DNA from: Palleronia pelagia
Lineage (GTDB): Bacteria; Pseudomonadota; Alphaproteobacteria; Rhodobacterales; Rhodobacteraceae
Direction: 5' to 3'
NCBI RefSeq assembly: GCF_900110115.1
Contig: NZ_FOCM01000002.1
Coordinates: forward strand, 372,001 to 436,000
DNA length: 64,000 nt
Below the pieces are notes generated by a model that did not search any database, had not been told where the DNA came from, and saw only the letters and a list, made by a program, of their open reading frames with translations. How positions within the stretch are numbered: the first letter of the stretch is position 1; every line of letters starts with the position of its first letter. Shown in pieces: positions 7,029 to 22,136 of the stretch. The position numbers and the translations under genes were made by a program.

Positions 7029-9082
7029 ACACGCAAACGTCCACCGCGCAGGATCCGCTTTTCCAGCCCTACCAGCTGAAGCACCTGACCCTGAAGAACC
7101 GGCTGATGATCTCGTCGCATGAACCGGCCTATCCCGAGGACGGCATGCCGAAGGAGCGCTACCGCGCCTACCATGTGGAGCGGGCGCGTGCGGGCGTCGG
7201 CCTGACCATGACCGCCGGGTCGGCCAGCGTGTCGCGCGACAGCCCGCCGGTCTTCAACAACATCCTCGCCTGGAAGGACGAGGTCGTGGACTGGATGAAG
7301 GCGCTCACCGACGAATGCCACGACCACGGCTGCGCGGTGATGATCCAGCTTACCCATCTCGGCCGCCGGACGCGCTGGGACAAGGGCGACTGGCTGCCCG
7401 TGGTGTCACCGGGGCACGAGCGCGAGCCGTCGCACAAGGCCTTCCCTAAGAAGGCCGAGGACTGGGACATCGCCCGCCTCGTTGCCGACTATGCCTCGGC
7501 CGCGCAACGGATGCAGGCCGCGGGCCTCGACGGGATCGAGCTGCAGGCCTACGGCCACCTGATGGACCAGTTCTGGTCGCCGCTCACCAACGATCTCGAC
7601 GGGCCCTACGGCGGGCCGTCGCTGGACAACCGCCTGCGCTTCACCTTCGACGTGCTGCGCAAGATCCGCGAGGCCTGCGGCCCCGATTTCATCGTCGGCG
7701 TGCGCTACACGGGCGACGAGGACTTGGCGGGCGGGCTGACCAACGAGGACGGCCTCGAGATCTCGCGCCGCCTGAAAGACAGCGGGCTGGTGGATTTCCT
7801 GAACGTGGTGAAGGGCCATATCGACACCGACGCGGGCCTGACCGACGTGATCCCGGTGCAGGGGATGCGGTCGGCGCCGCACCTGGATTTCGCGGGCGAG
7901 ATCCGCAAGGCCACGGCCTTCCCGACCTTCCACGCGGCAAAGATCCAGGATGTCGCCACCGCACGCCACGCCATCGGGTCGGGCAAGCTGGACCTTGTCG
8001 GCATGACCCGCGCGCACATGGCCGACCCCCATATCGTCGCCAAGATCCAGCGCGGGGACGAGGCGCGCATCCGCCCCTGCGTCGGCGCGAACTACTGCCT
8101 CGACCGGATCTACCAAGGCGGCATGGCCCTGTGCGTGCACAACCCCTCCACGGGGCGCGAGCTGGAACAGCCGCACGAAATCGCCAGGGCCGAGACGCCC
8201 CGCAAGGTCATGGTCATCGGCGCCGGTCCCGCCGGGCTCGAGGCCGCGCGCGTCGCGGCGGCGCGCGGGCACGACGTCGTGGTGCACGAGGCCGCGAACC
8301 AGCCGGGCGGCCAGATCCGCCTGACCGCGCAGACCGAGCGGCGGCGCGAGATGATCCAGATCGTCGACTGGCGCGTGTCCGAGTGCGACCGCGCAGGCGT
8401 GCGGTTCCACTACAACAGCTTCGCCGCCCCCGAGGACGTGCTGGCCGATGGCCCCGACGCCGTCATCATCGCCACGGGCGGCCTGCCCCATACCGAGGTG
8501 CTGGAGACCGGCGACGACCTGGTCGTCTCGGCCTGGGACATCCTGTCGGGCGACGTGGCGCCCGGCGAGAATGTCCTGATCTACGACGACGCGGGCGACT
8601 ACCCGGCCCTGCAGGCCGCCGAGCGCATCGCCAGGACCGGCGCGCGGGTCGAGATCGTGACCCGCGACCGCACCATCGTCTCCGAGGTCATGGCGATGTC
8701 GCTGACGCCGTCGCTGCGGATCCTGCAGGACCACGACGTGACCTTCACGCCCACCTGGCGCGTGGATGCCGTGAGGCGCGACGGCAACCATCTGGTCGCC
8801 ACGCTGGGCAGCGACTACGGCGCCTTCACCCGCGAGCGTCGCGTCGACCAGGTCGTGGTCAACCACGGCACCCGGCCGCTGGACGACCTGTATTTCGACC
8901 TGCGCGAGGGCTCTAGCAACCGTGGCGAGGTGGACCACGAGGCGCTGATCGCCGGCCGCCCGCAGACCGTGACGCGAAACCCCGACGGACGCTACAAGCT
9001 GTTCCGCATCGGCGACGCGGTTGCCGCCCGCAACACGCACGCCGCGATCTACGACGCGCTACGGTTGATACGGTCGCTCTGA
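7025..9082 (+). CDS. Old-yellow-enzyme-type N-demethylase (DgcA / N-methylproline demethylase family)
   Basis: 685-residue flavoprotein: an N-terminal TIM barrel that binds FMN (about 10-350), a short cysteine region (about 352-372), and a C-terminal dinucleotide-binding part starting at VMVIGAGPAGLEAARVA (about 397). This is the architecture of trimethylamine dehydrogenase, 2,4-dienoyl-CoA reductase, DgcA and StcD. In the context of the betaine Rieske oxygenase, it most likely demethylates the product of that step (dimethylglycine or N-methylproline). The cysteine region reads PCVGANYCLDRIY..LC, so one position usually held by Cys in the [4Fe-4S] motif is Ala. ATG 7025 overlaps the previous stop. 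Confidence 0.85.
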   Translation: MNTQTSTAQDPLFQPYQLKHLTLKNRLMISSHEPAYPEDGMPKERYRAYHVERARAGVGLTMTAGSASVSRDSPPVFNNILAWKDEVVDWMKALTDECHDHGCAVMIQLTHLGRRTRWDKGDWLPVVSPGHEREPSHKAFPKKAEDWDIARLVADYASAAQRMQAAGLDGIELQAYGHLMDQFWSPLTNDLDGPYGGPSLDNRLRFTFDVLRKIREACGPDFIVGVRYTGDEDLAGGLTNEDGLEISRRLKDSGLVDFLNVVKGHIDTDAGLTDVIPVQGMRSAPHLDFAGEIRKATAFPTFHAAKIQDVATARHAIGSGKLDLVGMTRAHMADPHIVAKIQRGDEARIRPCVGANYCLDRIYQGGMALCVHNPSTGRELEQPHEIARAETPRKVMVIGAGPAGLEAARVAAARGHDVVVHEAANQPGGQIRLTAQTERRREMIQIVDWRVSECDRAGVRFHYNSFAAPEDVLADGPDAVIIATGGLPHTEVLETGDDLVVSAWDILSGDVAPGENVLIYDDAGDYPALQAAERIARTGARVEIVTRDRTIVSEVMAMSLTPSLRILQDHDVTFTPTWRVDAVRRDGNHLVATLGSDYGAFTRERRVDQVVVNHGTRPLDDLYFDLREGSSNRGEVDHEALIAGRPQTVTRNPDGRYKLFRIGDAVAARNTHAAIYDALRLIRSL

Positions 9083-9137: not shown

Positions 9138-10418
9138 CTAGCCCGGTGCCGAATCTGGCGCGGCGGCCTTGTCCCGGGCATCGAATTCCTTCTGGTTGGC
9201 GGCCATGGCCAGGGTCTCGGGCGTGGATCCCCGCGCCAGCAGCCTGGCGCGGATGCGGGTCTTGTTCTCGGGGCTGACGGCGGGCGCGGTGGCGATGCGG
9301 AGGATGGCGAAGGCGATCAGCAGCGCGTGGGCGCCCCCGGTGACCGCGAACAGGGTGGCCGCCCCGAACGACGTCATGGCGAAACCCGCCACCGTCGGAC
9401 CGAAGATCGAGCCGATCCCGAAGACCAGCAACAGCCCGCCGCTGACCTGGATGAACGATCCCGGTTCTGCGTGGTCGTTGGCATGGGCCACGATGACCGG
9501 ATACATGGCGAAGACGGTCGCTCCGAACAGCGCGGCCAGCGCCATCACCACCGGCGGCCCCATGGATCCCAGCGCGATGAAAAGACCGTCGGCGACCAGG
9601 GCCAGCAGGCTGACGCCAATCAGGACCTTGCGGCGGTCGAAGCGGTCCGACGCGATCCCCACGGGAATCTGCGACACCGCCCCGGCCAGGATCGGGATGC
9701 TGGCGAACAACGCGATCTCGCTCAGGCTCATGCCGATGCGCGCGGCATAAACGGCGGCCAGCGTGCCGAAGGACGCGTTCGACACCCCGACCATCATGAC
9801 CGCGAAGACGGCGATGGGCGAATTGCGCCACAACGCGCGAAGGTTCAGGGACACCTGGGTCAGCGGCGCTGGCGTGGTCGTCGCGCTGATCGCCGTGGGC
9901 AGCAGCGCCATGCAGTAGACGATGGCCGCCAGCGCGAAGAACACGTAGCCGGTCGCGTCGCCCAGCGTCAGGATCAGCTGGCCCGCCGTCGTCGCGGCCA
10001 GGTTCACCATCGTGTAGACTCCGAACACCCGCCCGCGCGACGACGCATCGGTGCGTTCGTTCAGCCAGCTTTCCACGATCATCGCGGCGCCCGCGAAACA
10101 GAAGCCCGACAGCGCGCGCACCGGGATCCAGACCCACGGCGTGATCAGGATCAGCGACAACAGCACCGCGATGGCCGCGATGGCGCACATGGCGCCGAAG
10201 GCCCGGATGTGCCCCACCCGCGCCACCAGCGTCGGCGTTCGCAGGCACCCGACGACATAGCCCAGCGCCCAGCCCGTGCCGAGCAGACCCAGCGATGCGG
10301 CGGTAAAGCCCTCGGCCTCGCCCCGGATGGGCAGGATCAGGCTGTTCAGACCACCGGCAAACAGAAGAAAGGCAGAGCCCATCAGCAGGGCGGCAAGCGA
10401 GAACAGGCTTCGGATCAT
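9138..10418 (-). CDS. Major facilitator superfamily transporter (YcaD-like)
   Basis: 426-residue inner-membrane carrier with about twelve hydrophobic helices in two halves of six, joined by a cytoplasmic loop around residue 190-200. The GRVFGVYTMVN and DRFDRRK segments are the positively charged loops typical of MFS proteins. The C-terminal 50 residues are hydrophilic. It belongs to the sugar/drug-like MFS group that includes YcaD; no substrate can be assigned. It converges on the betaine-demethylation operon with a 55-bp gap and lies downstream of nothing it obviously serves. It might import the betaine or export a product, but that is only proximity. Confidence 0.85.
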   Translation of the reverse strand: MIRSLFSLAALLMGSAFLLFAGGLNSLILPIRGEAEGFTAASLGLLGTGWALGYVVGCLRTPTLVARVGHIRAFGAMCAIAAIAVLLSLILITPWVWIPVRALSGFCFAGAAMIVESWLNERTDASSRGRVFGVYTMVNLAATTAGQLILTLGDATGYVFFALAAIVYCMALLPTAISATTTPAPLTQVSLNLRALWRNSPIAVFAVMMVGVSNASFGTLAAVYAARIGMSLSEIALFASIPILAGAVSQIPVGIASDRFDRRKVLIGVSLLALVADGLFIALGSMGPPVVMALAALFGATVFAMYPVIVAHANDHAEPGSFIQVSGGLLLVFGIGSIFGPTVAGFAMTSFGAATLFAVTGGAHALLIAFAILRIATAPAVSPENKTRIRARLLARGSTPETLAMAANQKEFDARDKAAAPDSAPG

Positions 10419-10527
10419 GGCGGCACCGTGGCGCGTGTCGGTTTACGGGTCAGGGCGGGTCACGGGGAACCCCTACACGGCTTGGCGCGGCGGGCAAAGG
10501 CCCGGCCGGCCTTCACTGCCGATCCGG

Positions 10528-11594: not shown

Positions 11595-12614
11595 GTGCAA
11601 GTTCTCATCATCGCCGACGACCTGACCGGAGCGCTGGACAGCGCCGTCGCCTTCACCGGTGGCGGGCGCAGCGTGGTTGTGGCCCGCGACGTGGCCCGCA
11701 TTCCCGAGGCGCTGGAGCGTGCGCCGGATGTGCTGTCGGTCAACCTGGCCTGCCGCGAGGGCGACGCCGAAACCGCGCGGGCGCGGATGCGGGCTTGCAC
11801 CGACCGGCTCGATCTGGGTGCGGTGCCGGTCGTGATCAAGAAAGTGGACTCGCGGCTCAAGGGCCATGTCGGCGTCGAATGCGCCGCGCTGGCCGACGCC
11901 ATGGCACCCGAGCGGATCGTCGCACTGCCCGCCGTTCCGCAGATGGGGCGGATCCAGAAGGAAGGCGCCGTGACGGGCGACGGCATCGACGCGCCCATCG
12001 CGCTGGCGCCGCTGTTCGACCGGCCGGTGACGATCCCCGAGGCCACGACGGACGCGCAGTTGGACACCTGCGTCGCCGCGGAGGGCCGCGTGCTGTGGGT
12101 GGGGGCGCGGGGCCTGTGCTTTGCCCTGGCGCGGCGGCTGTTCGGTCCGCTCGATCCGGTAAACGGGCAACTGGCGCATCCGCTGGTCTTCGCCGTCGGC
12201 TCGCGCGACCCGATCACCGTTGACCAGGTCGAGGCGCTGCGCGTCTTGCTGCCCATAACCGCATTGCCCGACGGGCGGGCGACCGGGGACGTCCCCGCCG
12301 GCGGGACCACCGTCTTCCAGATGACCGAGAGCCGCGCGGGCCGGACGCCGGAGGATGCCGCACGCGATTTCGCCGACGCGGTCGCAGACCACTTGCGCGC
12401 CACCCGGCCCGACGGGCTTCTCGCCACCGGGGGCGAGACGGCGCAGGCAATCCTCGACCGGCTGGGCATCGGCGTGCTGCAAGTCCGCGCTGAACTCGCC
12501 CCCGGCGTGCCCGTCAGCGAGGCCCACGTGCCATGGGGCACGTTGCAGATCGCCACCAAGTCCGGCGGCTTCGGCGAATCCGACCTGCTGCGACGGATCG
12601 CGCGCGGCGCCTAG
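11595..12614 (+). CDS. Four-carbon acid sugar kinase family protein (DUF1537)
   Basis: 339-residue ATP-dependent kinase. The N-terminal substrate domain begins [13 protein letters not shown] with the conserved DD(L/F)TG, followed by [12 protein letters not shown]. The C-terminal nucleotide-binding domain carries [11 protein letters not shown] and IATKSGGFG near the end. Both are signatures of the DUF1537 kinases, which phosphorylate C4 acids such as threonate or erythronate, or 3-oxo acids. The start is GTG 11595; the gene is divergent from pdxA with 95 bp between starts. It would supply the phosphorylated substrate for the PdxA-like enzyme. At 339 residues it is shorter than the usual 410-430, so the substrate may differ from characterised members. 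Confidence 0.85.
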
Positions 12615-12628
12615 GGCACGAGCGCCGG

Positions 12629-13558
12629 TCAAAACCCGACCCGGTCGGCGCCCTTCAGGTCCAGCAACGCGCGCGCCTCGTCCGGGGTGGCGACCTCGAG
12701 CCCCAGCGTCTCGATCAGCCGCCGCGCCTTGGCGACCTGCTGGGCGTTGGACGTGGCCGCCTCGCCCGGTCCGATCCAGAGTGAATCCTCGAGCCCGACG
12801 CGCACGTGCCCGCCCTGCGCGGCGGCCATGGCGGCGATGTTCATCTGGTTGCGCCCCGCGCCCAGCACCGACCAGCGCCAGTCGTCGCCGAACAGCCGGT
12901 CGGCCGTGCGCTTCATGTGCGCCACGTCGTCGGGATGGGCGCCGATCCCGCCCATCAGCCCGAACACCGTCTGGATGAATAGCGGCGGCTTCACCAGCCC
13001 CGCATCAAGGAAATACTTCAGGTTATACAGATGCGCGGTGTCGTAGCATTCGAACTCGAACCGGGTGCCGTTCTCCGACAGCGTGGTGATGATCTTCTCG
13101 ATCTGGCCGAAGGTGTTGTTGAACAGGATGTCCTTGTTGCCCAGGTAGTCCCGCTCCCACTGGTGCTTGAGGTCGGGAAACCGCCCCAGCATCGGAAACA
13201 GGCCGAAATTCATCGACCCCATGTTCAGCGACGCGAGTTCCGGCGCGTGGGTGGCGGCGGGTTGCATCCGTTCCTCGACGCTCATGGTGGGCGCGCCGCC
13301 GGTGGTGATGTTCACGACCACGTCGCTGCGTTGCTTGATGACCTGAAGGAAGGGGGCGAAGGCCTCGGGCGTCTGGTCGGGGCGGCCGTCCTCGGGGTCG
13401 CGGGCGTGCAAGTGGACGATCGACGCGCCCGCCTCGGCCGCGCCCAGCGCCGCCTCGGCGATCTCGTGCGCGGTGACGGGCAGCGCGTCGGACATCGAGG
13501 GCGTGTGGATCGCGCCGGTCACGGCGCAGGTCAGGATGACTTTGCGGGAGCTTGGCAT
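12629..13558 (-). CDS. BKACE family beta-keto acid cleavage enzyme (DUF849)
   Basis: 309-residue TIM-barrel, zinc-dependent enzyme. BKACE proteins condense a beta-keto acid with acetyl-CoA and cleave it to a CoA thioester and acetoacetate. The metal-binding HLHARDP (H49, H51) and VNITTGG segments, plus GAGRNQMNIAAMAAAQGGHV and VGLEDSLW near the C-terminus, are family hallmarks. ATG 13558 has AGAGGAC upstream. It is divergent from an SDR 69 bp away, which could produce the beta-keto acid substrate by oxidising a beta-hydroxy acid. It converges on the DUF1537 kinase. The actual substrate is unknown. Confidence 0.88.
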   Translation of the reverse strand: MPSSRKVILTCAVTGAIHTPSMSDALPVTAHEIAEAALGAAEAGASIVHLHARDPEDGRPDQTPEAFAPFLQVIKQRSDVVVNITTGGAPTMSVEERMQPAATHAPELASLNMGSMNFGLFPMLGRFPDLKHQWERDYLGNKDILFNNTFGQIEKIITTLSENGTRFEFECYDTAHLYNLKYFLDAGLVKPPLFIQTVFGLMGGIGAHPDDVAHMKRTADRLFGDDWRWSVLGAGRNQMNIAAMAAAQGGHVRVGLEDSLWIGPGEAATSNAQQVAKARRLIETLGLEVATPDEARALLDLKGADRVGF

Positions 13559-13627: not shown

Positions 13628-14395
13628 ATGGACTGGGGAATGACGGGCGCACGGGTGATCGTGACGGGTGGCGCGGCGGGCATCGGCCTGGCCACCGCGC
13701 GGGCCTTCGCCGACGCGGGCGCGGTGGTGCATGTCTGCGACATCGACCAGGCGGCGCTGGACGCCCTGCCCGATGGCATCACCGGCACGCGCGCCGACAT
13801 GGGCGACGCGGTCCAGATCGAGGCCTTCGTCTCGGGCGCCATCGCGGCCATGGGCGGGCTGGACACGCTGGTGAACAACGCCGGCATCGCCGGGCCGACC
13901 GCGCCGGTGGACGAAATCGACGATGCCGACTGGGCCGCCACGATCGAGATCTGCCTGACCAGCCAGTTCCGCGCCACCCGCCACGCCGCCGCCGCGCTGC
14001 GGGCCAGCGACAACGCGAGCATCGTCAACATCTCGTCCCTGGCGGGACGGCTGGGGTTTGGCCTGCGCACACCCTACGCGGCGGCCAAGTGGGGCGTGAT
14101 CGGCTTCACCAAGTCGCTGGCCATCGAGATGGGCCCGGACGGGGTGCGCGCCAACGCGATCCTGCCGGGCATCGTGTCGGGTGACCGGCAGGTGCGCGTC
14201 CTGACCCAGAAGGCCGAGCGGCAGGGCCGCAGCTTTGCCGAGGTCGAGGCCGACGCCCTGCGCTATACCTCCACCGGCGCCTATGTCGCGCCCGAGGATA
14301 TCGCCCATCAGGCGCTGTATCTCGCCAGCCCGCTGGGCCGGGCGGTGTCGGGGCAGGCCATTTCGGTTTGCGGCGACACGCAGATGCTGACCTGA
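13628..14395 (+). CDS. Short-chain dehydrogenase/reductase
   Basis: 255-residue NAD(P)-dependent SDR. The cofactor loop is TGGAAGIG at 13-20, NNAG at 83-86, and the catalytic Ser136/137, Tyr150 and Lys154 are all present (NISSLAG, YAAAKWG). D38 and D40 at the end of beta-2 favour NAD over NADP. It is divergent from the BKACE gene and most likely oxidises a hydroxy acid to the keto acid cleaved by that enzyme. It converges on the TRAP permease gene with only 14 bp between stops. The family is certain; the substrate is not. Confidence 0.88.
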   Translation: MDWGMTGARVIVTGGAAGIGLATARAFADAGAVVHVCDIDQAALDALPDGITGTRADMGDAVQIEAFVSGAIAAMGGLDTLVNNAGIAGPTAPVDEIDDADWAATIEICLTSQFRATRHAAAALRASDNASIVNISSLAGRLGFGLRTPYAAAKWGVIGFTKSLAIEMGPDGVRANAILPGIVSGDRQVRVLTQKAERQGRSFAEVEADALRYTSTGAYVAPEDIAHQALYLASPLGRAVSGQAISVCGDTQMLT

Positions 14396-14409: not shown

Positions 14410-15687
14410 CTATCGGTAGATCAGCGTCGGCAGCCACATGGCGATGGCAGGCACGAAGGTCATCAGCAGCAGGCAGGCCACCAGCGGGATCAGGAAGGGC
14501 GACGTCGCAACGACACAGCGTTCGAACGGCACGCCCGACACCCGGCTGAGCACGTATAGCACCATGCCCACCGGCGGGGTCAGCAGGCCCAGCATCAGGT
14601 TCAGCACCATGATGACCCCGAAATGCACCGGGTCGATCCCCAGTTCGACCGCGACCGGCAGCAGCACGGGCGTCAGGATGGTGATGGCCGCCACCGTTTC
14701 CATGAAGCAGCCCACCACCAGCAGCACCAGGTTGATCATCAGCAGGATCACCCAGGGCCGGTCCGACACGCCCAAGAGCAGCGACGCCGCCATTTCGGGC
14801 ACCCGGTTCGATGTCAGGATCCAGGCGAAGATCGCCGCGCCCGCGACGACGAACAGCACCACCGCCGTCGTCTCGATGGTGTCGAAGCTCACGCGCAGGA
14901 ACCGCTTCAGCGTCAGCGTGCGATAGACGATCAGGCCCAGGAACATGGCATAGGCGCAGGCGGCCACGGCGGCTTCGGTCGGGGTGAACGCGCCCGACAG
15001 GATGCCGCCCACGATGATGACCGGCGTCAGCAGCGACAGGAACGCGCGCTTGAAGGTGATCGCCAGCACGCCCCAGGCGAAGGGCTGGTCGCGCTGGAAA
15101 CCGTAGCGGCCAGCGAAGAAGAAGATCATCAGCATCAGGCTGAGCGCCATGACGAGGCCCGGGATGAAGCCCGCCGCGAACAGCTGCCCGATCGAGGCGC
15201 CCGAGACGACGCCATAGATCACCATGGGCAGGGACGGCGGAATGATCGGCCCGATGGTCGAGGACGCCGCCGTGATGCCGACGGAGAACCCGGGATCGTA
15301 GCCCGCATCGCGCATGGCCTTGATCTCGATCGAGCCGAGGCCCCCGGCATCCGCCACCGCGGCGCCGGACATGCCGGCGAAGATCACCGAGGCGCCCACG
15401 TTCACGTGGCCCAGGCCGCCGCGCATCCAGCCCACCAGGGCGAGCGCGAAGTTGAAGATCCGTTCGGTGATGCCGGCGGTGTTCATCAGGTTGCCGGCGA
15501 GGATGAAGAACGGCACCGCCAGCAACGGGAAGCTGTCCACGCCGTTGATGACGCGGTGCGCCACCACCATCGGCGGCACCGTGCCCGACAGGATGAAGAT
15601 CGCCGAGGCTCCGGCCAGCGCGACGGCGACCGGCACGCCGATGACCAGCAGGCCGAACAGGATGACGAACATGATTCCGATGGTCAT
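14410..15687 (-). CDS. dctM: TRAP transporter large permease (DctM)
   Basis: 425-residue inner-membrane protein with about twelve hydrophobic segments of the DctM/ion-transporter superfamily. It is the sodium- or proton-coupled translocation subunit of a tripartite ATP-independent periplasmic transporter. Recognisable signatures are FFILAGNLMNTAGIT, GMSGAAVADAGGLGSIEIKA and GPIIPPSLPMVIYG. Three bases separate it from the small permease gene, so it is the last gene of the gntR-ldh/dctP/dctQ/dctM operon. The substrate should be a carboxylate, probably a hydroxylated one judging from the neighbouring enzymes. Confidence 0.93.
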   Translation of the reverse strand: MTIGIMFVILFGLLVIGVPVAVALAGASAIFILSGTVPPMVVAHRVINGVDSFPLLAVPFFILAGNLMNTAGITERIFNFALALVGWMRGGLGHVNVGASVIFAGMSGAAVADAGGLGSIEIKAMRDAGYDPGFSVGITAASSTIGPIIPPSLPMVIYGVVSGASIGQLFAAGFIPGLVMALSLMLMIFFFAGRYGFQRDQPFAWGVLAITFKRAFLSLLTPVIIVGGILSGAFTPTEAAVAACAYAMFLGLIVYRTLTLKRFLRVSFDTIETTAVVLFVVAGAAIFAWILTSNRVPEMAASLLLGVSDRPWVILLMINLVLLVVGCFMETVAAITILTPVLLPVAVELGIDPVHFGVIMVLNLMLGLLTPPVGMVLYVLSRVSGVPFERCVVATSPFLIPLVACLLLMTFVPAIAMWLPTLIYR

Positions 15688-15690
15688 GGC

Positions 15691-16254
15691 TCAATCGGCT
15701 CCCAGGGTTGCGTCTTCGTGGGCGTCGGGGTCGATCAATCGGCTGGTTCCGTCGCGAAGGTGGCGCCAGGTGTTCCAGGCCGCGAACAGGGTCATGCCGA
15801 GGAAGCATGCCGCGACGTAGTAATAGACGGTGGATTTCGGGACCTCGATGGACACCATCAGCTGGTTCGTCCGCCCCGCCAGCTGGATACAGAGCCAGGT
15901 CATCCCGGCGAAGGCCGCGGTGGTTATGAGGTCGATGACGAGTTGCGCCACGCGGCGCAGCGACCGCGGGATCCAGCGGTAGAAGAATTCGACCGCGATA
16001 TGGCTGTTCTTGCGCGCGGCCAGCATCGAGCCGGTGAAGGTCACGGCGATCAGCAGGAAGCGTGCGATCTCCTCGGTCCAGCCCAGCGAGTCGTTCAGCA
16101 CGTAGCGGGTGAAGAACTGCAGGAAGACGACGAAGGCCAGCACCCAGAAGATGACCAGCACCAGGTAATCGAGCCAGGCAATGTCATCGAGATTGATCTC
16201 GTCCTCCTCGAAGACGATGGCTTCGGGCTCGTCCGTGTCGCGCTTGTCGGTCAT
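15691..16254 (-). CDS. dctQ: TRAP transporter small permease (DctQ)
   Basis: 187-residue inner-membrane subunit with four hydrophobic helices (about 28-50, 65-83, 105-128, 143-162) and hydrophilic acidic ends. The LNDSLGWTEEIARFLLIAVTF segment is the DctQ family core. It pairs with the large permease encoded 3 bp downstream. It is separated from the binding-protein gene by a strong hairpin that could lower its expression relative to that gene. Confidence 0.92.
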   Translation of the reverse strand: MTDKRDTDEPEAIVFEEDEINLDDIAWLDYLVLVIFWVLAFVVFLQFFTRYVLNDSLGWTEEIARFLLIAVTFTGSMLAARKNSHIAVEFFYRWIPRSLRRVAQLVIDLITTAAFAGMTWLCIQLAGRTNQLMVSIEVPKSTVYYYVAACFLGMTLFAAWNTWRHLRDGTSRLIDPDAHEDATLGAD

Positions 16255-16348: not shown

Positions 16349-17341
16349 TTAGCTGTCGGCGCCGATAGCTTGCAGGCGATCGTAGGTTTCCTGGTCCCAG
16401 GTCGCCATGTCGCCGTTGTGCATCTCCATCACCGCCTCGCGGAAGGGCGTGATGTCGACCTCGTTCACGTTCACGCCCTGCTCGCGGAACCAATCGGCCA
16501 ACTCGGCCTCGGCGTCGCGGATCTGGCTTGTCACGCAGTCCGAGGTTTCCTCGATGATCGTGGCCAGCGTTTCCTGGTCGGCCTCGTCGAGGCTACCCCA
16601 GGTCGGCCCGCCGACGATGCCCAAAAGGCTGTCGACGATATGGCCGGTCAGGTTGATATCCGTCTGGACCTCGTAGAACTTCTTGGCCTGGATCGTCGGA
16701 AGCGGGTTCTCCTGCCCGTCCACCGTGCCCTGCTGAAGCGCGAGGTAGACCTCGGCGAAGGCGATGGGCGTGGGGTTGGCGTCGACCGCGCGCGGGAACA
16801 TCATGTAGAGCGGCGCATTCGGCACGCGCAACTTCATGCCTTCCATGTCCGCGGGCGTCTGGATCGGCCCGTTCGAGGTCGTGTGCCGGGCGCCGTAGTA
16901 GGCCAGCGTGACCGGGTGGTTGCCCGTCGCCTCTTCGTAGCCGTTCAGCATCTCCTGGAACAGGTCGCTGTTGCGGTAGGCATCCCAGTGATCGTAGTCG
17001 CGGAACATGAACGGCGCGCCGCCGATGGCGATCGGCCCGTAGGACCGGCCGGCGAAGAGCTGGCCCGTCCAGATGATGTCCACGGTGCCCAGGCCAAGTC
17101 CTTCGTTGATGTCGACTTCCTTGCCCAGGGACGAGGCCGGGAAGACCTCGATGCCCAGGCGGTTGTCGGTCTGCTCGGCCAGCTTGTCGCCGGCCTCGAC
17201 GGCGCAGGTGTGATAGGGCTCGCTCGCCTCGTAGACGTGGGCCCACTTCAGGACGCGGTCCGCATCCTGCGCGAAGGCCGGTGCGGCAACTCCGATGGCG
17301 GTGGTGGCCGCCAGTGCAATTCTCATGGTGGTCTTGGTCAT
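16349..17341 (-). CDS. dctP: TRAP transporter substrate-binding protein (DctP family)
   Basis: 330-residue periplasmic protein with a cleavable signal peptide (MTKTTMRIALAATTAIGVAA, cleavage probably after AFA). The mature part shows the DctP pattern: LKWAHV, VDIIWTG, the conserved MKLRVPNAPLYMMF with the substrate-binding Arg, and GTVDGQENPLPTIQAKKF. ATG 17341 follows GGGAGAGAG. It delivers the substrate to the DctQM permease. It lies 31 bp downstream of the gntR-ldh fusion and probably shares its transcript. The conserved Arg implies a carboxylate ligand. Confidence 0.93.
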   Translation of the reverse strand: MTKTTMRIALAATTAIGVAAPAFAQDADRVLKWAHVYEASEPYHTCAVEAGDKLAEQTDNRLGIEVFPASSLGKEVDINEGLGLGTVDIIWTGQLFAGRSYGPIAIGGAPFMFRDYDHWDAYRNSDLFQEMLNGYEEATGNHPVTLAYYGARHTTSNGPIQTPADMEGMKLRVPNAPLYMMFPRAVDANPTPIAFAEVYLALQQGTVDGQENPLPTIQAKKFYEVQTDINLTGHIVDSLLGIVGGPTWGSLDEADQETLATIIEETSDCVTSQIRDAEAELADWFREQGVNVNEVDITPFREAVMEMHNGDMATWDQETYDRLQAIGADS

Positions 17342-17372
17342 TAATCTCTCTCCCTTTTGTTCAATGACCGTT

Positions 17373-19136
17373 CTAATCCGCCCGGCCGACGTCTTCATCG
17401 AGTCCGAGCGGGGCGATTTCGTGCGTGGCGGCAAACTCCGCCAGCTCCTTGATCGTGGTCGGGTCCAGCGTGATCCCGTGCGCGCGGCGGCGACGGCCCT
17501 CCTCCCATTCGCGGTCGCCGGCGGCCATGACCGACTGCCCCGGCGCCGCGTCCGACGCGCGGATGGCGGCGCGGTAGCGTGACACGACCCGCTGGAACAC
17601 GTCGCGCCCCATGAAGGCGTCGGGATCGATGGCCAGGACAAAGGCGCCGAGACCGCGCGGCGTCGACATGTCGTCCGAGACCATCGGCGCGATTTCGCGG
17701 CTGAGCGGCGCGTCCGACAGGGCCGACGACAGGATTTCTGAGATCCCCGCAAGCCCGGCGCCCTTGTAGCCGAAGGCCGCCCCGAGCGGGGCCAGCATCT
17801 CGGCGATACCGGGCGCGGTGGTGTCAACGCCGTTCGCGTCCGAGGCCGTGCCCTCGGGCAGGGCCTTGTTCAGCGACCGCGACAGCAGCACCTTGTTGTA
17901 GGGGATCGCGCTCGTCGCCATGTCCAGGAGCCAAGGCTCCTGACCCGGTCCGGTCGGTGCGGCGAAGGCGATCGGATTGGTGCCGTGGAACCGCTCGGCC
18001 CCGCCATGCAGGCGGACGAAGGCATCCGAATTGCACACGGCCAGCCCCGCCATGCCGGCCTCGGCGATGGCGGTTGCATAGGCACCGGCGGCCCCGAAAT
18101 GCGACGACGCGCGGATGGCGACGGCCCCGACACCGTATTCGCGGGCCAGTTCGATGGCGCGATCGACCGCGGCATACCCGGCGCGCGCCCCGTGGGCATC
18201 GTCGGCGTCCAGCACCGCGGCCCCGCCGGTTCCGCGCGGAAAGCTCAGCTTGGGTGTGGTGTTCAGCCGCCCCCCGGCGAAGCCTCGCAGGTAATGGGGC
18301 AGCAGCCGGTAGCCGTGGGTGTCGACGCCCAGGCCCGACGCGTGGGCCAGCGCGCGCACGACCGATTCCGTCGTGGCGGCGTCGGCGCCCACTTTCTCCA
18401 GCGCGGCGCGGGCGAAGCGTTCCATCTCGGCCAAGCTGACGCGGGGCGGAGCGCCGACCTCGCGGCTCGCGGAGCAGAAATCGGTATAAGCATCCGCATT
18501 GTCGCGCACGTGATCGCGCAGCAGGTCTATGGCGCGCTCCAATTCGCCCGCCTGCACGGCGGCGACGATGGCGGTGTGGGTGGCGTGCGACGTCCGGATG
18601 CGGTCGCGCTCGCGGGCCAGGCGGGTACGCATGGCCTGGATGCGCGGCGCGAACTGAATGAATGTCTGTTCCAGGTAGCGGTTGCCGCAGTGGCGGAAGA
18701 TCTCGAGGTGGAATTCGTTGTCCGACCGGCTGAACGCCTCGATATCGTCAGCCTCGAGCGCGGCGGCACCGGCCTGGACCTGGGCATCGAGCGCGGCGGC
18801 CAACCCGGCGGCGTCGGACGCCATCGCCATGCGCAGCCCGTCGACCTCGAGCATCTCGCGCAGGTGAGCGAGATCGCCCATGTCCCCCGCGCTCAACTGC
18901 ATCACGCGGGCCGACCGGTTGGGCGACATCACCACGAGCCCCTCGTAGGCCAGCTCGGACAGCGCCTCGCGGATGGGGCTCTTGCTCATGTTCAGCATCT
19001 GAGAAAGCTCGGATTCGCGCAGGACGCGCCCGAAACCGAACTCGTCATAGACGATCTTCTCGCGAATGAGGTCGCGCGCGATCTCGGACAGTTTCTGCCG
19101 CCCGGTCGCCTCGCGGCTGTCCAGTGCCATGCTCAT
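17373..19136 (-). CDS. Fusion protein: GntR/FCD transcriptional regulator + Ldh-family (malate/L-lactate dehydrogenase type) oxidoreductase
   Basis: One uninterrupted 587-residue reading frame holds two complete domains. Residues about 12-80 are a GntR winged helix (ELSQMLNMSKSPIREALSEL), and 85-220 an FCD ligand domain with candidate metal ligands H143, H187 and H209. From about 231 (RVSLAEMERFARAAL) to the end it is an Ldh_2-fold NAD(P) dehydrogenase with THG at 273-275, the catalytic-type SSHFGAAGAY (H346), DMATSAI and GYKGAGLAGISEIL. Normal GntR/FCD proteins have about 220-250 residues and Ldh proteins about 340-360, so the sizes add up. ATG 19136 follows GGGAGG. It heads the dctPQM operon and lies behind a GATATAT palindrome. 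I infer a regulator whose effector is the substrate or product of its own enzyme domain. Loss of a stop codon between two former genes is the likely origin. Confidence 0.88.
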   Translation of the reverse strand: MSMALDSREATGRQKLSEIARDLIREKIVYDEFGFGRVLRESELSQMLNMSKSPIREALSELAYEGLVVMSPNRSARVMQLSAGDMGDLAHLREMLEVDGLRMAMASDAAGLAAALDAQVQAGAAALEADDIEAFSRSDNEFHLEIFRHCGNRYLEQTFIQFAPRIQAMRTRLARERDRIRTSHATHTAIVAAVQAGELERAIDLLRDHVRDNADAYTDFCSASREVGAPPRVSLAEMERFARAALEKVGADAATTESVVRALAHASGLGVDTHGYRLLPHYLRGFAGGRLNTTPKLSFPRGTGGAAVLDADDAHGARAGYAAVDRAIELAREYGVGAVAIRASSHFGAAGAYATAIAEAGMAGLAVCNSDAFVRLHGGAERFHGTNPIAFAAPTGPGQEPWLLDMATSAIPYNKVLLSRSLNKALPEGTASDANGVDTTAPGIAEMLAPLGAAFGYKGAGLAGISEILSSALSDAPLSREIAPMVSDDMSTPRGLGAFVLAIDPDAFMGRDVFQRVVSRYRAAIRASDAAPGQSVMAAGDREWEEGRRRRAHGITLDPTTIKELAEFAATHEIAPLGLDEDVGRAD

Positions 19137-19157
19137 TCGAATCCTCCCGACCTCGAC

Positions 19158-19172
19158 GATATATCATATATC
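19158..19172. promoter_or_regulatory. GntR-type operator candidate
   Basis: GATATATCATATATC is a perfect 15-bp palindrome in an otherwise GC-rich region, 21 bp upstream of the gntR-ldh start. FCD-type GntR regulators bind short A/T-rich palindromes of this size, usually in their own promoters. Autoregulation is inferred. Confidence 0.65.
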
Positions 19173-19266
19173 ACATGACGCAAGGGCAGTGAGTCTGTGG
19201 GATCGGAAGCCGGTGGCCGAGCGGCGGACGCCCTACCGACACCGTTCATCGTGGCGATTTCCGCAA

Positions 19267-19317
19267 GTTAACGCAAGGTTAACGACTGTTCTGGAAAGAG
19301 CTAACGCCGGGCTAACG
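19267..19317 (+). promoter_or_regulatory. Four 11-bp-phased direct repeats (GYTAACG), SARP-type operator candidate
   Basis: GTTAACG at 19267 and 19278 and GCTAACG at 19300 and 19311 are spaced 11, 22 and 11 bp, so all lie on the same helix face. SARP activators, through their OmpR-like winged helix, bind heptameric direct repeats with 11-bp periodicity next to the -10 region. The array lies directly upstream of a SARP-family gene, about 210 bp from its likely start. The slot at 19289 that would complete five repeats is not conserved. Confidence 0.75.
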
Positions 19318-19529
19318 CCGCACTTCGTAGGATGATTCGTGCATTTGGAGGAAAGTGGAAAATTCATTTGAGCACCCAAGGCTTTGATCCATTCATTGAG
19401 GACGAACCTGTTGGGAGCGTCATCCGAAGGGCATCCATGGCTCGCCATGGGGCTGATCGGTGGCCCGACCAGCGGGACCATAGCCCCACTTTCCTTCCAA
19501 ATGCGCCAACGCCTTTCTATGGTTCGCAT

Positions 19530-21263: not shown

Positions 21264-22136
21264 ATGGGACTTCACGACATTCTTGCGGCGAACCGCTTTA
21301 CCGTCACGCCGACCGGGCTGCTGCTGAACGAGACCTCGGCGCAGCCGGTCGCTGATCCCGCAACGGCCGCCGGAGGCGGCGGCGCACTTTCGGTGCTGGC
21401 TTTGAACCGCAACAGGAACCGTAATCGCAACAGGAACAGAAACCGTAACAGGAACCGCAACCGCAATCGAAACCGGATGCTCGACGCGGCGCCCGACGGC
21501 GGGCTGCAGGAGCCGTGGCGGGAACGGCAGAAATTGCACGCGCTGGCCGACCAGTGGATGGCGCTTCCTCTGCCGCCGCCGCCCGGACTTGACGGCCTGC
21601 GGCGCGAGGCAGTCGATCTGCTGATCAAGCAGGCGCTGCGCCGCAGTCCCGCCGAGTCCCAGCGCCACGAAGAGATCTACCGCGAAGCCGGGTTGGAGCT
21701 GTCGGGTTATCTTCGGCCCCTGGGGATCGAGGAGCTGGGCGACTACGGCGCGACCGAAAGCCTGTTCTACCTGATCCTCGCCCTGACCGACGAGATCGGA
21801 TTGCGGTACAAGGATCGCTTCGGCGTGCTCCGACCGAACCAGGTCGAGCCGCGGCTGCGCCCATTGCTGCCAAACCCGGCGCACCAGTCGTACCCGTCGA
21901 ACCATTCGTTCCAGTCGTTCTCGGTCGCGTTCCTGTTCTCGCGCGTGCTGCCGGAACACCCGGCAAGTGCCGAGATGTTCGTGGCCGCGCGCCGCATCGC
22001 CGAGAACCGCGAATGGGCCGGGGTGCACTATGCCTCGGACACGGCCGCCGGTTACGCCCTGGCCCGAATGGTTGCGCCGGTGCTGGAACAGGTCTGCGCC
22101 GAACAGATGCTGGCCGCCCAGGCGGAGTGGCTGTGA
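21264..22136 (+). CDS. PAP2-superfamily (vanadium haloperoxidase/acid phosphatase fold) protein with Asn-Arg repeat
   Basis: 290 residues, 12 bp downstream of the SARP gene and sharing a TGATG junction with the subtilase gene. The C-terminal half carries the three PAP2 motifs: K-x6-RP (K183 to R190-P191), PSNH (211-214) and R-x5-H-x3-D (R249, H255, D259). In the last motif the usual preceding Ser is Asn. This predicts phosphatase or haloperoxidase-type chemistry, with His255 as nucleophile or vanadate ligand. There is no signal peptide and no clear membrane helix, unlike lipid phosphatases. Residues 48-71 are twelve Asn-Arg dipeptides. Function in the operon is unknown. Confidence 0.8.
   Translation: MGLHDILAANRFTVTPTGLLLNETSAQPVADPATAAGGGGALSVLALNRNRNRNRNRNRNRNRNRNRNRNRMLDAAPDGGLQEPWRERQKLHALADQWMALPLPPPPGLDGLRREAVDLLIKQALRRSPAESQRHEEIYREAGLELSGYLRPLGIEELGDYGATESLFYLILALTDEIGLRYKDRFGVLRPNQVEPRLRPLLPNPAHQSYPSNHSFQSFSVAFLFSRVLPEHPASAEMFVAARRIAENREWAGVHYASDTAAGYALARMVAPVLEQVCAEQMLAAQAEWL
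21405..21476 (+). repeat. (Asn-Arg)12 coding hexanucleotide tract
   Basis: Twelve consecutive AAY-CGN/AGR codon pairs encode Asn-Arg repeats. The codons are diversified (CGC, AGG, CGT, AGA, CGA and CGG are all used), so the peptide pattern rather than the DNA repeat seems conserved. AGG and AGA are rare in a genome this GC-rich. Slippage would change length by whole dipeptides and never break the frame. Confidence 0.9.

Follow-up and report, generated by a model that had tools for sequence, protein, structure and literature searches.

Results

A regulator and a dehydrogenase in one frame

Within the 64,000-nucleotide stretch of Palleronia pelagia DNA analysed here (the window), the minus strand carries at 17373..19136 a single open frame starting with ATG, whose 587-residue product joins a GntR/FCD regulator to an Ldh_2 dehydrogenase. 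Three Pfam domains follow one another along it: a winged helix-turn-helix (PF00392, residues 20-78, 18903..19079; 46.2 bits against a cutoff of 27), an FCD effector domain (PF07729, residues 88-211, 18504..18875; 75.1 bits against 24.3) and an Ldh_2 NAD(P) dehydrogenase domain (PF02615, residues 233-565, 17442..18440; 309.8 bits against 38.8, spanning profile positions 1-332 of 333). An earlier note on this DNA had placed the gene at the same coordinates and described a stop-free frame through two complete halves. This description holds, as 587 codons are open from the ATG and all three domains, including the near-full Ldh_2 profile, exceed their Pfam cutoffs; only the linker, formerly given as residues 220-230, is put here by alignment and model at about 212-231 (18444..18503), where both length and sequence vary. 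With helix-turn-helix and FCD above their cutoffs and the Asp/His/His/His set present, the first half belongs to the FCD/FadR subgroup of the GntR family, and the second, with full-length PF02615, two invariant histidines and the cofactor residues, belongs to the Ldh_2 or L-sulfolactate dehydrogenase-like family.

Just 5' of the ATG, a Shine-Dalgarno-like GGGAGGA was recognized by eye (19142..19148, minus strand). Further upstream lies the palindrome already remarked on earlier, which is exact at 19158..19172 (GATATATGATATATC), is operator-like and recurs ahead of other fused genes. It overlaps a promoter-like TTGCGT-N16-TATCGT (19156..19183, minus strand) found by pattern search.

The TRAP importer and its surroundings

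Also as claimed earlier, the fused gene stands at the head of TRAP importer genes, all on the minus strand and assigned by Pfam: the solute-binding protein DctP (16349..17341, 31 nt 3' of the fused gene, with its ATG chosen by eye), the small permease DctQ (15691..16254) and the large permease DctM (14410..15687). The same P, Q and M genes follow downstream on the same strand in all 14 fused loci that we collected, and the fused gene is presumably co-transcribed with them. Beyond the importer, an SDR gene (Pfam) runs in the opposite direction to the fused gene (13640..14395, plus strand), and near it a gene for a beta-keto acid cleavage enzyme (BKACE; 12629..13558, minus strand) scores 531 bits against the NCBIfam cutoff of 430 for 3,5-dioxohexanoate:acetyl-CoA acetone transferase. 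Among the stretches compared, close relatives of SDR and BKACE lie beside the fusion in Palleronia and Marivita only, and we therefore regard the repressor-enzyme and the importer as the conserved unit.

The nearest solved relatives of DctP are 4pc9 and SiaP proteins, from which its ligand cannot be read, and a literature search for 4PC9, 4PCD or RD1_1052 returned nothing. Three unfused loci possess a TRAP P protein 71-74% identical to it (G289/L112, G183/L078 and G132/L113). The varied neighbours of these loci do not reveal the substrate: an Ldh_2 is present in L078, and neither L112 nor L113 has a match to Ldh_2 or GntR. Beside the TRAP locus of L112, a gene at 9322-10488 of that locus (G289) encodes a different pairing of regulator and enzyme, a MerR helix-turn-helix (residues 3-68) together with a methyltransferase domain (187-281).

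Two further genes of the window deserve mention in their own right. A four-carbon acid-sugar kinase of 339 residues (11595..12614, plus strand), with partial Pfam matches to both domains of this family, is short relative to the matching family models (418-451 residues), and it is 339-340 residues long in two other Palleronia genomes. At 21264-22136 (plus strand), a protein contains about 12 consecutive Asn-Arg dipeptides; the run is slightly longer in the Palleronia salina copy (L039), so that the repeat length seems to be variable.

Occurrence of the fused gene

Near-full-length matches to the fused protein occurred in 5 of 394 genomes of the family (the window genome G000, G025, G315, G152 and G188) and in 10 of 40 loci from GTDB r220 contigs; after removal of L046, which is identical to L011, 14 distinct genomes carry the fused frame, the window included, with protein identities of 46-97%. 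Besides the window, named carriers are Palleronia (two), Marivita, Limimaricola (two), Tranquillimonas, Maritimibacter (two), Roseicyclus and one uncultured Rhodobacteraceae bacterium, and the window protein and its Palleronia salina counterpart share 97% identity. All 14 proteins are 580-592 residues long and free of internal stops, with start codons of the relatives chosen by hand, and a TGA at the end of the match in G315 is the gene's own stop. Thus, the same domain order, for which the earlier note had advised a search, exists in 13 further distinct genomes, and since the same frame recurs there without internal stop, the sequencing or assembly error between the domains that had been feared is excluded.

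Within the window's genus, one further genome (G066) gave no match at E <= 1e-20. A search of 385 genomes of the class, part of which belong to the same family as the window, was run at E <= 1e-95, a threshold that would miss a weaker fusion; it returned only the window and two Ldh-only matches. A plasmid origin was rejected, as in none of the 974 plasmid records with a match does a single place cover 80% of the query; a phage origin was rejected as well, none of 10 pattern-matching viral-contig stretches encoding a relative.

A single clade whose sisters have hydroxyacid-type neighbours

In the tree of Ldh domains, the 14 fused rows of 69 form one group (support 100/100), and the same 14 of 68 do so in the tree of GntR domains (100/98); both trees leave out repeated records of the same gene. 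No split member falls inside the fused group in either tree, and one fusion event suffices. A length filter removed from the Ldh tree L071 of Paracoccus mutanolyticus, whose Ldh gene (7352-8385) is broken into two overlapping parts that lie in different frames. Unfused Ldh relatives are about 50-58% identical, and GntR genes are frequent in their vicinity, in either orientation. Derivation of the fused GntR from these neighbours is not supported, its sister group being other unfused GntRs (L136-L150).

Six sister loci were inspected (L151-L156), with part of their neighbours scanned. Importers of the TRAP type occur in L152, L154 and L155 and of the ABC type in L155 and L156; an FMN-dependent dehydrogenase (FMN_dh) is encoded in L152 and L155, and a D-isomer 2-hydroxyacid dehydrogenase in L151, L153 and L155. 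L154 possesses genes matching PF01969 and AIRC, which we take to be LarC- and LarB-like, respectively; lactonase-type SGL proteins are found in L155 and L156, and a keto-deoxy-galactonokinase in L155. Because the sister GntRs adjoin importers and/or hydroxyacid dehydrogenases, FMN_dh and LarC/LarB-like genes, their neighbourhoods suggest 2-hydroxy or sugar acids as ligand class, and the regulator lineage appears to be tied to such acids. In the fused branch of this lineage, the regulator itself ends in an Ldh_2.

The tether could also be a fusion of convenience, in which the halves act independently, stoichiometry or expression alone is fixed, and the FCD ligand is neither substrate nor product of the enzyme. 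Its restriction to a single clade, which may descend from one event, and the poorly conserved linker described below would agree with that. However, all 14 members, whose identity falls as low as 46%, retain the fused form and, without exception, the TRAP linkage, and the hydroxyacid-type neighbours of the sisters hint at a ligand shared by both halves, so that we regard mere convenience as distinctly improbable.

Both halves look functional

As the earlier note had it, key residues are kept in both halves. In the regulator, 13 of the 14 fused proteins have exactly the recognition helix SKSPIREAL, and D139, H143, H187 and H209, matched to 3fms by alignment, are kept in all 14; from this alignment, we presume them to be the metal ligands of the FCD domain. 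With the effector domain intact throughout, a sensor already exists apart from the Ldh domain. Over six pairs, dN/dS is 0-0.14 in the helix-turn-helix (one pair having saturated dS), 0.05-0.39 in FCD and 0.07-0.22 in Ldh.

For the enzyme half, the accessible part of the AllD paper names His44 and His116 as invariant, candidate catalytic residues and Thr156, Pro158, Asp174 and Lys224 among those of the cofactor site. By eye, and with the chain numbering running 2 ahead, these align with H274, H346, T386, P388, D405 and K458, which are kept in 14 of 14 fused proteins. The substrate residue Arg48 of AllD instead aligns with Leu278, which implies that the substrate probably differs and that AllD is no guide to it; likewise, the NCBIfam equivalog cutoff for AllD is not reached (179.9 against 496.2 bits). 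Judged by the kept histidines and cofactor residues, the Ldh half is apparently active and NAD(P)-dependent, and both halves of the protein look functional. Neither the kept residues nor dN/dS give any sign of a pseudogene or a dead half.

One half might still have lost its own activity, with an enzyme fold reduced to a sensor, for which MocR and BzdR are precedents in the accessible parts of their literature, and the DNA-binding half of one member (L012, see below) indeed looks altered. The catalytic and cofactor residues conserved in every fused protein and the low dN/dS in Ldh and helix-turn-helix make this scarcely credible.

Linker and structural model

The single-chain AF2 model (mean pLDDT 85.3, pTM 0.63) is mostly confident in both halves and leaves their mutual placement unfixed; pLDDT falls below 50 at residues 1-13, 225-227 and 582-587. 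Its last FCD helix reaches residue 224, and only about 225-231 are loose before Ldh. Along the linker (212-231), none of 26 alignment columns is invariant and the mean pairwise identity is 0.25. Its dN/dS, estimated from few codons, is 0.81-0.89 in three of six pairs and 0.16-0.20 in the other three, and because of the latter the linker is not clearly free of constraint.

These features bear on a strict trigger enzyme, in which occupancy of Ldh by cofactor or substrate would alter conformation or dimer geometry and thereby switch DNA binding, a proposal that we consider unlikely. Every row of the clade has both domains in one chain, the predicted helix leaves only a short loose segment between them, half of the pairs show low linker dN/dS, and, by analogy with the relatives of each half, which are dimers in the accessible parts of the AllD and NanR papers, a joint dimer is conceivable. 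However, the linker is of low identity, has no invariant column and shows dN/dS of 0.81-0.89 in the remaining pairs, and the fully kept FCD effector site would be needless if Ldh were the sole sensor. Since the linker evidence is mixed, direct switching by the enzyme keeps its place among the readings.

The same region could encode two products, namely the fused protein and a separate Ldh whose translation begins internally, at the ATG of EMERF. All fused genes but one (13 of 14) have this ATG, and the exception, L045, has an ATG 12 nt upstream, while four parsed unfused rows have Leu at this position and the other 51, by eye, have no Met there. Yet no Shine-Dalgarno is seen by eye at proper spacing, and initiation there would remove the strand at 232-233 of the predicted model; a second product is thus very unlikely.

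A candidate operator over a predicted promoter

Upstream palindromes of the fused genes were scored by mismatches to GRTATATSATATAYC. In 12 of 14 loci the best site has at most 2 mismatches and lies 31-43 nt 5' of the start; L045 has 4 mismatches and L012 has 7. When the upstream stretches were shuffled base by base, only 2 of 4200 shuffles scored as well. In the 3.85 Mb genome, GRTATATSATATAYC has one exact match, the site at the fused gene, and five further places have 2 mismatches and none has 1; a reversed control pattern yields 2 places against 6 for the palindrome. Sites with at most 2 mismatches were confined to fused genes among the loci then compared. Random-piece nulls gave 20 of 4000 with at most 2 mismatches for the fused upstream regions and 113 of 1500 with at most 3 for the sister comparison, figures that overstate chance since the pieces include true sites.

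Twelve of 14 fused loci contain the pattern TTG-N3-N16-TA-N3-T, as opposed to 2.2% of single-base shuffles, and in 11 of these loci it overlies the palindrome, with a different register in L040; it is absent from L009 and L045 and present in L012, where the palindrome is missing. A general promoter scan of 17250-19330 with a stricter threshold returned no sigma-70 site. Both patterns were picked after inspection and scored on the sequences they came from, and the rows are related as one clade; the figures thus express conservation and are not independent proof.

A related motif extends to the sister regulators. Within about 215 nt upstream of the GntR genes, at most 3 mismatches were found in 12 of 15 sister unfused GntRs against 6 of 39 upstream regions from other GntRs, and for the core TATATCAGATAT at most 2 mismatches in 12 of 15 against 2 of 39, the 39 including repeats of one gene.

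Among the fused members, L012 (G188; also L083) alone shows no trace of the palindrome, and it alone departs from SKSPIREAL. Its GntR branch is long (1.05) and its Ldh branch measures 0.4, and it keeps the promoter pattern, the FCD and Ldh residues and the TRAP genes. The joint difference of helix and site supports binding of the palindrome by the fused protein in the other members, although L012 is one case and L045, with 4 mismatches and an intact helix, fits the pattern poorly. We infer that 19158-19172 is a putative operator of the fused protein.

Discussion

Our study leads to a reading that we hold to be probable, if by no means secure: the fused protein would be an autorepressor of its own operon and a dehydrogenase at once, in which FCD senses, and the tethered enzyme consumes, the imported hydroxy-acid inducer. 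Both halves are complete, the gene heads the TRAP genes, and an operator-like palindrome lies ahead of it, which makes it plausible that a single protein exerts feedback on the imported acid. DNA binding, repression rather than activation, the ligand class and catalysis are all inferred here from sequence features.

In the proposed cycle, the GntR part would bind the palindrome, which overlaps the predicted promoter in its spacer and -10 region, when the nutrient is lacking, and the bound repressor would hold the fused gene and the TRAP importer low. The few fused copies made would serve as repressor and as basal enzyme. Once a 2-hydroxy (or sugar) acid enters, the acid or its keto product would bind the FCD pocket, probably held at a metal on the Asp/His/His/His set, causing release from DNA and a joint rise of importer and enzyme. 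The tethered Ldh would then oxidise the acid with NAD(P)+ and remove the inducer. Hence, as the reader of the acid would also be the one that clears it, repression would return by itself. We suggest that this feedback acts through ligand consumption rather than domain-to-domain allostery, and we prefer it to direct switching by the enzyme because the linker sequence is unconserved and FCD is intact.

A further variant, which we deem quite unlikely, would be a class of one-component regulator, of which our literature search turned up no case, with two metabolite-reading modules in one chain: FCD would read the acid and the intact dehydrogenase, through its catalysis, the NAD(H)/acid ratio, and both would set the occupancy of the protein's own single operator, forming a redox-gated import switch.

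Should the autorepressor reading be correct, the oxidation of an imported acid and the control of its further uptake may lie in the same molecule. The unit is small and self-contained, comprising the repressor-enzyme, the importer and one operator-like site with a single exact genome copy, and nature offers 14 variants of it, including one lineage in which both the recognition helix and the site are different. It would let one test if tethering a sensor-repressor to an inducer-destroying enzyme alters induction dynamics, and if simple gene fusion gives enzymes a regulatory function. To our knowledge, few well-studied enzymes double as transcription factors.

One of these is PutA, an autorepressor fused to proline catabolic enzymes, which senses through the enzyme's flavin. 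By analogy, the fused protein would also repress its own catabolic operon and catalyse the pathway; in contrast to PutA, whose DNA-binding domain and enzymes are unrelated, it has a separate sensor domain.

With respect to each half alone, close counterparts are known. Foldseek matches the N-terminal half to VanR and TM0439, and the GntR/FCD regulators TM0439 (3fms), VanR Atu1419 (6z74) and NanR share with it the winged helix-turn-helix and the FCD D/H/H/H residues. The solved regulators matched have about 200-260 residues and lack such an enzyme, whereas the fused protein carries an Ldh_2. According to the accessible part of the NanR literature, the TATAT half-sites of the candidate operator resemble the GGTATA repeats of NanR; however, NanR binds direct repeats and the site at the fused gene is a palindrome. 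For the enzyme half, the nearest solved Ldh_2 is 1z2i of A. tumefaciens (53% identity over 349 columns; Foldseek TMt 0.88), with the two histidines and the cofactor residues kept. Nevertheless, the solved Ldh_2 chains matched have about 330-385 residues and stand alone as enzymes, whereas in the fused protein a regulator has this domain as its C-terminal half.

For GntR, 76 different companion domains are counted in a survey of transcription factors whose main text contains neither the word "dehydrogenase" nor "FCD"; in open-licence PMC full texts, no description of a GntR/FCD-Ldh_2 fusion was found. Comparable in architecture, as far as the accessible sections of the BzdR literature extend, is BzdR, whose helix-turn-helix part is likewise joined through a linker to an enzyme-derived, shikimate kinase-like domain; that domain is inactive, whereas the Ldh residues of the fused protein are kept. 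MocR, GabR and PdxR similarly attach a GntR-type helix-turn-helix to a metabolic enzyme fold, which in the available portions of the papers on them is an aminotransferase-like sensory domain. No aminotransferase class I domain is among the Pfam matches of the fused protein, which instead keeps its FCD and adds a different, apparently active enzyme. Thus, fusions of transcription factors with enzymes or enzyme folds are known as such, and the GntR/FCD-Ldh_2 combination appears to be a new variety among them.
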